Origin: a virus
Reading direction: 5' to 3' (one strand)
IMG/VR virus record: IMGVR_UViG_3300020578_000008
Span: 1 to 64,000 of that record
DNA length: 64,000 nt
The translations under genes and the position numbers were made by a program. Under the pieces are notes generated by a model. The model was not told the DNA's origin. It made no database searches and saw only the letters and a program-made list of their open reading frames with translations. This document shows, one piece after another, positions 3,462-34,211 of the stretch. Within the stretch, counting starts at the first letter, position 1. Each line of letters opens with the position of its first letter.

Positions 3462-3486
3462 TGTATTGTAAGCAATCCTGACTCAT

Positions 3487-3558
3487 TGGAGTGTAGCTCA
3501 GTGGTAGAGCGGTCGGCTGTTAACCGATTGGTCGTAGGTTCGAATCCCACCACTCCAG
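3487..3558 (+). tRNA. tRNA-Asn(GUU)
   Basis: Acceptor TGGAGTG/CACTCCA, anticodon stem GTCGG/CCGAT, loop CTGTTAA giving GUU, T arm GTAGG TTCGAAT CCCAC (one mismatch), discriminator G. Last tRNA before the structural region. Confidence 0.92.
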
Positions 3559-3601
3559 TTGGCGATACTGCCATCAAACCAAACCCCTTCCGTGTGACTT
3601 T

Positions 3602-31090: not shown

Positions 31091-31131
31091 GGCATAAGGG
31101 TCTTGACAGACCCCTTTTTTTATGCCATACT
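31091..31131 (+). promoter_or_regulatory. Combined terminator and promoter, -35 box in the hairpin loop
   Basis: AAGGGTC (31096-31102), loop TTGACA, GACCC (31109-31113), then a 7-base T run: a rho-independent terminator. The loop is itself a perfect -35 box; 17 bases later is CATACT (31126-31131) with the extended TGC. GGCATA and TATGCC flank the whole. So it ends the fibre transcript and starts the helicase cassette. Confidence 0.8.
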
Positions 31132-31156: not shown

Positions 31157-32395
31157 ATGTTGCTTCGTCCTCACCAACAGAGTGGTTGTGCTGCTATGGA
31201 GCAGTATAACATCGGTCAACTGCTCATGCCTACGGGCGCTGGCAAGACCCCTACAATGATTCATGACTGTATTCGTGTGTTTGACACTGTAGACGCCGCT
31301 ACGGTCGTTGTGGTCGCTCCTAGGATCCTTCTGGCAGAGCAACTGTCTGCTGAGTTTCTTGAGCACATTACTAACGCTTCTGTACTTCATATTCATAGTG
31401 GTGAAACTCACCACTTCAAGACTACTAACCCCAATGTAATCAGTCAATGGGTGGAGAGTCATAAGTCCCACAACAAACTTATTTTCACAACCTATAACTC
31501 TCTTATTCGGGTTCAGCAGTCTGGCATTGATGTCCACACTGTCTATTGTGACGAGGCACATAATTCTATCAAGAAGAATTTCTTTCCTGCTATAGAATAT
31601 TTTTCTGGTGCTGCTGATCGTTGCTATTTCTTTACTGCCACTCCTAAGCATTCCAACACTATGTCTAAACCAGGCATGAATGATATTGATGTATACGGTA
31701 AGGTTATCTGTGATGTTCCTGCTACCGATATGGTCAAGCAAGGTTATATTCTTCCTCCTACCGTTGTTCCTTACGTTGTTGATTACGAACGTTTGAAAGG
31801 TGATCTTGCTGCTAGCAGCGATCATGTTACTCTCGTTAATATTATCGACGAACTGGATGAGGATGCTGCTTCTAAAATTCTGGTGGCAGTTCCTAGCAGC
31901 AAAGTGATGTGGAATCTGCTGTCTCAAACTACTATTCTCAATGACCTTGAAGATCGTGGTTATGATGTGCTTCATATCACTAGCAAGTATGGTGCTTGGG
32001 TTAACAAAACCAAAGTCAACCGTGAGGTATTCTTTGATACGTTCAATGCTTGGGGCAAAGATCCCAACCGTAAATTTGTAATTTTCCATTATAGCATTCT
32101 TGCTGAGGGTATCAACGTTCATGGTCTGACTCACACCATTCTGCTCCGTACTCTTGATGTCATCGAGATGGCACAGACTATCGGTAGGGTTATCCGTCTC
32201 AATAAAGACGATGCTGCTGACCTTTCTAGTGGTAGAATTGCTGTTGGTGACTATGCTATGTACCGTAAACCCACTGGTTTTGTGACTGTTCCTGTGTTCA
32301 AGAACTATGGTGATCGTACTATCAAACGTCTTCAGAACCTTGTCGATACTATTTTCGTTCAAGGCAAACCCGCTGTTTCTGTGGTCAACCGATGA
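31157..32395 (+). CDS. SF2 DNA helicase/ATPase (DEAH)
   Basis: 412 residues from the ATG at 31157; an earlier in-frame TTG lies within the -35 box and is unlikely. LRPHQ at the start is the Q-like region; Walker A PTGAGKT at 25-31, Walker B DEAH at 132-135, motif III TATP at about 160-163, and motif VI QTIGRVIR near 340-347. This is a restriction-type (ResIII/UvsW-like) superfamily II translocase using ATP. It is the first of three overlapping genes (helicase, HNH nuclease, adenine methyltransferase), with stop and next start sharing ATGA. Could be a recombination helicase, but the neighbours suggest a DNA-processing module. Confidence 0.85.
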   Translation: MLLRPHQQSGCAAMEQYNIGQLLMPTGAGKTPTMIHDCIRVFDTVDAATVVVVAPRILLAEQLSAEFLEHITNASVLHIHSGETHHFKTTNPNVISQWVESHKSHNKLIFTTYNSLIRVQQSGIDVHTVYCDEAHNSIKKNFFPAIEYFSGAADRCYFFTATPKHSNTMSKPGMNDIDVYGKVICDVPATDMVKQGYILPPTVVPYVVDYERLKGDLAASSDHVTLVNIIDELDEDAASKILVAVPSSKVMWNLLSQTTILNDLEDRGYDVLHITSKYGAWVNKTKVNREVFFDTFNAWGKDPNRKFVIFHYSILAEGINVHGLTHTILLRTLDVIEMAQTIGRVIRLNKDDAADLSSGRIAVGDYAMYRKPTGFVTVPVFKNYGDRTIKRLQNLVDTIFVQGKPAVSVVNR

Positions 32396-33390
32396 CTAAA
32401 CTTACTAAACTTACCCGTAAAATCGATTACAAAGACCAGTTGCTGACATACAAGCAACTGGAAGGTGTGGTTGCTCGTAAGCATATTCTTACTGGATCAG
32501 CTGCTGAGATTATCAACAATTCAAAAATCAACGATTTTGGATGGGAATCAGCAGCACTGGCATATTCTACCTTCACAACAGATGAGCGAGCAGATATTCG
32601 TAAATCTGGGCAGCAACTCGCTAAAGGTTACTACAATCCTACAACTGAGACAATTGATTCTCCTAATGTTCAACCTACGAATGATAGGGGTATTCTTGTA
32701 ACTCAAATGTATCTCAATCAGGATCGTTGCTGTGCTTACAGTGGTGATGGTCCTTACCATATTCTAGATTTTCAGGTAGAACATATTAATCCTAGTGGTG
32801 GCGACCACCCAGACAACATTGTACTTGTTCTCGCTAATGTAAATGAGAATAAAAAGCAATCTGTAGAGAGCTTCCTTGAACGTTGTGAACAGCGTTATAA
32901 CATGGGAGAACTTGAATATGCCAAATGGTATAAGGATATGAAAGATGCTGTCAAACGTGGGCAGAAAAAGAAATCTGAAATTCTCTCCATGAATGAGGAT
33001 GAGTTACGAACATACTGGTTGACACGTACAACACCAAAGTATGACAAATATGTGTGGCGTAATATTGGTATGTCATCTCTCAGTGAGTTTCGTATCCTGA
33101 AAAAAACAGGAGAGGAACGTAAAGGTGGTAGTCAAGGTAACTATGTGGACATTCTAAGCACTATTGCTGCTGAATATCTGTTTGGCGATCCTGATCTGGC
33201 ACGAGAAATTTATAAATCTGCTAGGTTATTTCGTAGTACTTATTTGAATGGAAAGATTCAAAACGATGTCTATGCTATTCTTACCACAGAAATCATAGAG
33301 TTGTCAAATCACATCTATCCAAGTTATAATAGAGACAAATTTATTGCTAACATCATCCGAAACAATTATACATGGCAACATCTAAACTGA
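32392..33390 (+). CDS. HNH endonuclease
   Basis: 332 residues. The HNH core is at about 110-157: DRCCAYSG, VEHINP (H131) and DNIVLVLANVNENK. HNH nucleases cut DNA with one metal ion in a beta-beta-alpha fold. The Cys pair is not the usual CxxC zinc knuckle. About 170 residues of unknown function follow, much longer than a homing endonuclease core. Overlaps the helicase by 4 bases and the methyltransferase by 19. Confidence 0.8.
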   Translation: MTKLTKLTRKIDYKDQLLTYKQLEGVVARKHILTGSAAEIINNSKINDFGWESAALAYSTFTTDERADIRKSGQQLAKGYYNPTTETIDSPNVQPTNDRGILVTQMYLNQDRCCAYSGDGPYHILDFQVEHINPSGGDHPDNIVLVLANVNENKKQSVESFLERCEQRYNMGELEYAKWYKDMKDAVKRGQKKKSEILSMNEDELRTYWLTRTTPKYDKYVWRNIGMSSLSEFRILKKTGEERKGGSQGNYVDILSTIAAEYLFGDPDLAREIYKSARLFRSTYLNGKIQNDVYAILTTEIIELSNHIYPSYNRDKFIANIIRNNYTWQHLN

Positions 33391-34211
33391 CTAACCATTC
33401 CCTGTATCGTTACGCTGGTGGTAAGAACAGGATGAAAAAAGATTTGATTCAGATTATCAAGGATGTAAATCCTGGTTTGACCAAGATTGTAGCGCCATTT
33501 ATGGGTGGAGGATCAACTGAGATTCTGATGGCAGCACAAGGTATCAAGGTGCAATCGTATGATATTTTTCGACCGCTAGCAGACTTCTGGGAGATCGTCA
33601 CGGCAGGTGGCGGCGGGCGAATCGCTGATGAAGTGACCAAGCATTACCCATTAATTGATAGCAATCACTATAAATCCTTCCTTCCGTTGTTGGATAGTGA
33701 GGATAAGTTCATCAGAGCGTGGGCATTTTACATTGCAATCAAGGGTTCGTACTCAGGTAAGATCGGATGTTCTACCGTTAAGTCTAGAGCAGAGTTCAGA
33801 CTTGTGGGAATTGATAAACTTAGGAATTTTTATAACCCGAACCTGTCGTTTGCCTACGGTAGTTGCTTCGACACGATTCCAAAGCACAAAAATGACTTCT
33901 TGTATCTGGATCCACCATATTACGAGACTGTTAGCCACTATTATGGTAAAGATGGTGCCCTTCACAAATCATTTGATCACGAAGCATTCTGTGATACTTT
34001 GAAGCAACACAAAGGTGGGTTCGTGATGTCTTATGACAACAGTGATGCTGTTCGTGAACTCTATCAAGGGTGGACAGAATTCAGGTATCTTACATTCCCT
34101 TATCAAATGTCGGGCACCAAACGTTACGATAAAACTGAATTGGTGATTGTCAAGCATCCAGAGCACTCTATACAAAAACCACAAACTGTGCTAGAATCTT
34201 TCATGGTATAA
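33372..34211 (+). CDS. dam: D12-class DNA adenine N6-methyltransferase
   Basis: 279 residues. AGGKNRM near the N-terminus, SAM-binding PFMGGGST at 42-49, and the catalytic DPPY at 180-183 (FLYLDPPYY) are all intact, in the order of Dam/D12 enzymes. It would transfer a methyl group from SAM to adenine N6 in DNA. Target site unknown. It starts inside the HNH gene, so the nuclease and methylase are probably made together. Confidence 0.88.
   Translation: MATSKLTNHSLYRYAGGKNRMKKDLIQIIKDVNPGLTKIVAPFMGGGSTEILMAAQGIKVQSYDIFRPLADFWEIVTAGGGGRIADEVTKHYPLIDSNHYKSFLPLLDSEDKFIRAWAFYIAIKGSYSGKIGCSTVKSRAEFRLVGIDKLRNFYNPNLSFAYGSCFDTIPKHKNDFLYLDPPYYETVSHYYGKDGALHKSFDHEAFCDTLKQHKGGFVMSYDNSDAVRELYQGWTEFRYLTFPYQMSGTKRYDKTELVIVKHPEHSIQKPQTVLESFMV

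Follow-up and report, generated by a model that had tools for sequence, protein, structure and literature searches.

An HNH nuclease gene and a D12 methyltransferase gene, carried behind a common helicase gene, probably constitute a type II-like restriction-modification pair of a T4-like cyanophage. This reading is drawn from the strict pairing of the two genes, their insertion as a two-gene unit, their presence in an unrelated phage context and the loss of the degenerate palindrome YGCR. According to the proposed mechanism, both enzymes would recognise YGCR, the nuclease would cut unmodified YGCR in the DNA of the host and of co-infecting phages, and the methyltransferase would protect the roughly 200 YGCR sites remaining in the phage genome, imperfect self-protection having possibly driven the loss of the others. 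A restriction-modification system had already been proposed in a sequence-only reading of this DNA. The same four lines of evidence favour it for the nuclease and the methyltransferase, whereas the helicase is best described as a neighbour rather than a shown member.

Organization of the locus and its enzymes

The window, i.e., the whole stretch of 64,000 nucleotides analysed here, belongs to a virus record of 156.6 kb with the gene order of a cyanomyovirus. Three intact ORFs follow one another on its + strand at 31157-34211 (Table 1), and since they are kept in many further contigs, chance is excluded. The earlier description of three intact enzymes with overlapping ends was borne out by the ORFs and their domains, the helicase and HNH genes overlapping by 4 bp and the HNH and methyltransferase genes by 19 bp. 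The helicase ORF opens with a TTG at 31103, and the ATG chosen as start in that reading is the one used in relatives. As for the insulated promoter that it also assigned to the locus, the support stays at the consensus level, with a terminator-like hairpin followed by a T run (31098-31113) overlapping a TTGACA-17-CATACT site (31103-31131) in a scanned region that holds 44 promoter-like sites for 33.7 expected and 9 terminator-like sites for 3.9 expected.

Table 1. Coordinates of the locus and of related features (window positions unless a record or locus is named).
Feature	Position	Strand	Basis or remark
Terminator-like hairpin with T run and overlapping sigma-70-like promoter match	31098..31131	+	Consensus scan only
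SF2 helicase, 412 aa, common cyanomyovirus gene	31157..32395	+	Pfam ResIII E 3.5e-18, above the Pfam cut-off; 418 isolate records; start from relatives
HNH nuclease, 332 aa, proposed restriction endonuclease	32392..33390	+	HNH_4, phrog_1035, invariant active-site residues, structure model
HNH core, residues 114-151 with H131, N142 and N151	32731..32844	+	Invariant in 21/21 rows; strand-loop-strand-helix in model
D12-class DNA methyltransferase, 279 aa, DPPY motif	33372..34211	+	Pfam MethyltransfD12 E 1.4e-15, above the Pfam cut-off; motif invariant in alignment
Putative recognition stretch GSYSGKIGCSTVKSRA of the methyltransferase	33744..33791	+	Our assignment from sequence comparison
Seven phage tRNA genes, including tRNA-Ile(tat) and two tRNA-Leu	473-1337 and 3486-3559		
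Second D12 methyltransferase	Source record 135771-136529		32% identical to the cassette enzyme
HNH module inside large cyanophage proteins	L084 3314-4972 (S-TIM5); L083 2831-4909 (S-CRM01); L335; L336		Two annotated as virion proteins
HNH homologue and methyltransferase in a second context, with MvaI/BcnI-family nuclease and N6/N4 methyltransferase in tandem	G001 (L198 2928-6643)		
170-aa ORF between helicase and related methyltransferase subtype	L213 3310-3822; L206 2201-2713		Present in 10 contigs
Stretch with MutH-like nuclease between methyltransferase and helicase	S-RIM8 (L338, 28466-39047); WH25-B (L332, 161104-169706)		
GIY-YIG and D12 methyltransferase pair	L160 6317-7796; L330 6001-7463; L339 4001-5424		Adjacency

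The HNH protein matched HNH_4 with an E value of 0.0053, below the Pfam cut-off, and phrog_1035 (endonuclease VII) with an E value of 8.7e-7. Its residues H131, N142 and N151 were invariant in the 21 aligned family members, and the DPPY and glycine motifs of the methyltransferase were invariant as well, so that the intact nuclease site and the methyltransferase motifs characteristic of a type II system are both present. In the AlphaFold2 model (mean pLDDT 87.9, pTM 0.57), the three residues are borne by a strand-loop-strand-helix at residues 127-154. A Foldseek search of the PDB with this model returned no match under 0.001; the sensible matches were HNH cores, the best being 4h9d (Z 5.1, 2.9 A over 76 residues), and none of the solved restriction enzymes emerged from these searches as a clear relative of the family. 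Among viral models, the matches were parts of large cyanophage proteins, with S-TIM5 "virion structural protein and packaging" as the best (E 4.5e-9). A cytosine methylase adjoins the HNH-module protein in S-TIM5 and Dam genes lie nearby in ACG-2014f, while no methyltransferase was seen near the HNH-module relative within the stretch viewed in S-CRM01, S-B05, S-CBWM1 and RN05-S. Hence, the module exists outside the pairing too. Isolate records gave six weak matches to the HNH protein. Cellular homologues were found neither in strict-pattern scans of genome contigs nor in plasmids.

The methyltransferase also matched TIGR00571 (E 1.1e-14, below its cut-off), its closest solved structures being 7m6b and the DpnII methyltransferase 2dpm, and its D12 domain with DPPY is that of the Dam family. 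No methyltransferase match above about 33% was obtained in isolate records among the matches listed. The putative recognition stretch is common to cassette-type methyltransferases and differs in the enzymes devoid of an HNH gene; it was also present in L198 and L221.

Pairing and joint insertion of the nuclease and methyltransferase genes

Among uncultured cyanophage contigs, alignment scans recovered 36 with the HNH gene and 66 with the methyltransferase. The methyltransferase directly followed the HNH gene in 34 of the 36, the other two ending at the contig edge. Reciprocally, 34 of the 39 methyltransferases with at least 70% identity had at least 1.1 kb of upstream sequence, and the HNH gene was found there in each case. 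The two genes are therefore separate and linked, as in type II systems, in 34/34 testable contigs in each direction, counts behind which, as for the YGCR counts below, stand many related contigs of shared ancestry. Conserved synteny in other genomes, whose absence would have spoken against the sequence-only reading, was thus observed for the nuclease and the methyltransferase. In the related methyltransferase subtype below 70% identity (27 contigs), the recognition stretch was mostly different and the HNH gene was absent from 19 of 20 testable cases, L198 being the sole exception. Conversely, L221 carries the cassette-type recognition stretch with no adjoining HNH gene and constitutes a counterexample to the pairing. 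Beside this subtype, the 170-aa ORF that separates it from the helicase in 10 contigs gave nothing useful against Pfam and looks PD-ExK-like to our eye only.

Comparison of a contig with the cassette (L053) and one without it (L087) suggests that the nuclease and methyltransferase genes insert cleanly, as a two-gene unit, behind the helicase: the two contigs aligned at 81% up to the base preceding the HNH start, and the alignment resumed at the gene following the methyltransferase. In a helicase tree of 91 rows, the cassette label fell into three supported clades and needed 3 changes, compared with 19.1 for shuffled labels; these may correspond to one gain and two losses. The nuclease itself is apparently replaceable. 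L008 and L012 have helicases that are 91% and methyltransferases that are 96% identical, but their HNH proteins share only 23% identity, and DNA similarity breaks off at the HNH gene ends (L008, 8006-8984; L012, 6991-8001) while the three catalytic positions are retained, as though one lineage had exchanged its nuclease and kept its methyltransferase.

The second context is that of L198, which lies in a 49 kb record (G001) of a T4-like phage, by our reading of its ORFs. It carries an HNH homologue (29% identity over 331 aa) and the methyltransferase, with no helicase nearby. Behind this pair come two overlapping genes, which encode a nuclease of the MvaI/BcnI family (E 4.5e-17) and an N6/N4 methyltransferase (E 5.7e-32). 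Alongside these two tandem nuclease-methyltransferase pairs, GGCC was counted 0 times for 154 expected in the 49 kb.

Loss of YGCR and alternative explanations

Expected word counts were computed from trinucleotides and the central dinucleotide, and 21 cassette loci (330 kb) were compared with 62 helicase loci devoid of any nuclease or methyltransferase match (524 kb). Among the 16 palindromes, TGCA was an outlier, with an observed/expected ratio of 0.13 in cassette loci and 0.62 in the background. TGCA as the sole site was superseded by YGCR once the 136 tetramer classes were ranked: CGCG (0.09), CGCA/TGCG (0.13) and TGCA (0.13), with background values of 0.69, 0.79 and 0.62, respectively, were the only classes depleted more than twofold beyond background, the next one reaching about 1.4-fold. 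At the level of single loci, the YGCR ratio was at most 0.26 in 26/26 cassette loci, a set including near copies (L012/L013) and one locus covering only the end of its HNH gene (L011), and at least 0.41 in 70/70 helicase loci without an HNH or methyltransferase match.

The depletion occurs in three separate helicase clades, with ratios of 0.20 in the window record and 0.23 in its sisters, 0.06 in the L050 clade, of which one record (G003) gave 0.09 over 100 kb, and 0.10 in the L014 clade, while the cassette-free neighbours L086, L087, L123 and L115/L117 ranged from 0.58 to 0.71. The pair found away from the helicase (G001) was associated with a ratio of 0.21. YGCR loss thus tracks the HNH-methyltransferase pair, although this tracking alone does not show recognition by either enzyme. 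About 206 YGCR sites are left in the window record, so that protection would still be needed. In PMC4687349, about half of 1774 cases of orthodox type II systems are reported to avoid their own site, a pattern that earlier work, according to this source, ascribed to incomplete methylation. Several observations count against the pair reading, namely the YGCR loss of G002 without adjacent HNH gene, the 23% identity of the L012 nuclease, an HNH protein in L020 shortened by about 45 conserved C-terminal residues, in a locus that is still YGCR-depleted, the HNH relatives partly without a methyltransferase nearby, and the shared ancestry of the contigs. Regarding the methylated base, Dam-family (D12) enzymes methylate adenine, classically in GATC, a word whose ratio is normal in the cassette class (0.99). 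CGCG, adenine-free yet depleted like TGCA, sits badly with an adenine methyltransferase, and this loss suggests that the methylated base could be cytosine N4.

Other words are also scarce in these genomes. In the window record, CCGG (0 for 95 expected) and GGCC (0.11) were both lower than YGCR, and they are low in other cyanophages too; CCGG and the RGCY words are widely avoided in cyanophages, with or without the cassette. Since RGCY words are generally low, AGCT (0.02) was not claimed as the site of the related methyltransferase subtype. Besides, TGCA fell below 0.3 in 6 of the 70 cassette-free loci (L158, L150, L119, L155, L109 and L095), where TGCG was between 0.78 and 1.08. This normal TGCG makes them a different case from YGCR loss, possibly another, TGCA-specific system; a search of their records, run without a positive control, retrieved no HNH relative.

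Two further nuclease types of cyanophages, encountered in a survey of other genes behind the helicase, provided a comparison. The MutH-like nuclease was found in 108 IMG/VR stretches (80 kept) and 25 isolate records. It had no convincing match in the PDB by sequence, while a fold search with its model retrieved MutH (Foldseek E 3.6e-6, Z 11.3) and Sau3AI (Z 10.0), both of which act at GATC. In the S-RIM8 and WH25-B stretches, where this gene lies between the methyltransferase and the helicase, GATC was counted 0 times for 44 and 35 expected, respectively. The ratio was 0.28 over ten MutH loci hand-picked for a nearby methyltransferase, 0.41 in a further 25 MutH loci and 0.79 in the set of loci with the helicase alone, and S-CAM7, whose MutH-like gene has no annotated methyltransferase in view, retained 24 for 41 expected. 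The pairing is looser here, with a methyltransferase directly downstream in 5 of the 80 loci kept out of 108. In 19 of 22 contigs, a D12 methyltransferase came directly after the GIY-YIG nuclease (in two others it lay about 1.1 kb off, and one was at the record end), and this pair also occurs in the isolates S-SCSM2R and Sf-CH11. The nuclease profile matched Hpy188I, a restriction enzyme (E 0.0033), with a weak second match to endonuclease II of T4 (E 0.16). ACNGT was the strongest depletion among the 5- and 6-letter words tested in this class (0.26, compared with 0.89). All 12 loci showed low values for it (from 2/14 to 7/13), as did three gene-bearing stretches of isolates (8/50, 2/14 and 4/33), whereas six stretches of isolates lacking the gene gave ratios close to 1. 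Hpy188I recognises TCNGA, which has the same interrupted form as ACNGT. These pairs act as controls, and the site lost in each agrees with its nuclease fold.

The main rival explanation is host-driven avoidance, in which hosts bear a YGCR restriction, the phage methyltransferase is a counter-defence and the HNH protein serves some other function, for instance homing or DNA processing. In PMC7230728, site avoidance by viruses is interpreted as an answer to restriction by the host, and the gain of a cognate methylase by a phage is described in PMC4987407. This would account for G002, where a cassette-type methyltransferase with no HNH gene found beside it goes with a YGCR ratio of 0.29 and the three YGCR words are the most depleted of the 136 classes; it also agrees with the avoidance of RGCY and CCGG in cyanophages without a known system of their own, and with the existence of HNH relatives without methyltransferase. 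Nevertheless, it leaves the constant adjacency and joint insertion of the two genes unexplained, as well as three unrelated nuclease types each with a different site loss, two of them as the nuclease fold predicts, and we consider it rather unlikely. A free-standing homing endonuclease beside an unrelated methyltransferase is far less credible: HNH proteins of phages are often homing enzymes, a cassette-free allele exists (L087) and the distribution is patchy, but the inserted unit comprises both genes, their pairing is strict, and a 4-bp word would not become scarce genome-wide through an enzyme whose site is long and unique.

Among 50,697 isolate records, 418 matched the helicase, and each of these carries Synechococcus, Prochlorococcus, cyanophage or marine virus in its name. 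In the four isolates examined first, the helicase lies downstream of tail genes, without HNH gene and methyltransferase. Within the best 80 of 591 matching IMG/VR loci, taken by similarity, the cassette was present in 6 and absent from 74; with any nuclease or methyltransferase type considered, 11 had both, 3 a methyltransferase only, 2 a nuclease only and 64 neither. A three-protein machine, as read from the sequence at first, in which the helicase would translocate for a nuclease-methyltransferase complex in the manner of type I or III systems, is the least probable explanation and membership of the helicase was rejected, because, even if it adjoins the HNH gene in all 36 contigs with overlapping or close ends and MutH and GIY-YIG pairs are often near the same helicase, it is frequent without the pair, the pair stands without it in G001, and own-site avoidance is practically unreported for type I/III systems in PMC4687349.

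Significance and comparison with known systems

Phage methyltransferases are usually taken as orphan shields against the host. Here, the putative shield is accompanied by a cutter in cyanophages from many metagenomes, with recognition sites predicted from sequence alone. No description of these cyanophage pairs was found in the titles and abstract openings listed by searches of the open-licence literature. The chances seem about even that cyanophages repeatedly built type II pairs of their own by joining nucleases of three or more unrelated folds (HNH, MutH/Sau3AI and GIY-YIG) to D12 methyltransferases, often near one helicase gene, that they use them to break both host and rival DNA, and that they shed the matching site (YGCR, GATC or ACNGT). 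If true, this would explain how cyanophages could selectively break host DNA or exclude rivals, and the missing sites would offer a readout of the specificity of phage restriction systems. Isolated phages exist with other pair types (S-RIM8, S-PM2 and Sf-CH11).

The cyanophage pair resembles orthodox type II systems in its adjacent nuclease and DNA methyltransferase and in the avoidance of a short palindromic site in the carrier genome. It differs in its T4-like phage carrier, in an HNH family without clear solved restriction-enzyme relative in the searches made, and in the putative nature of its activity. The chlorella-virus enzymes CviRI and CviJI recognise TGCA and RGCY, respectively. According to PMC7253447, giant viruses (marseilleviruses and chloroviruses) encode a nuclease and a methyltransferase, which were proposed to exclude rivals, host DNA not being degraded, and the site of the melbournevirus system is GATC. 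As in the cyanophage pair, both enzymes are encoded by the virus, although those are viruses of eukaryotes. The role proposed for the HNH protein is also reminiscent of the T4-type endonucleases that degrade host DNA (EndoII), in which a phage nuclease attacks unmodified host DNA; T4 protects itself by hydroxymethylcytosine, whereas a site-specific methyltransferase would ensure protection in the cyanophage. Closest at hand, the MutH-like/Dam and GIY-YIG/D12 pairs of cyanophages (S-RIM8, WH25-B, S-SCSM2R and Sf-CH11) share with the HNH pair a nuclease joined to a D12 methyltransferase, often near the same helicase, and a class-specific site loss, and differ from it by their unrelated nuclease folds and by their sites, GATC and ACNGT.
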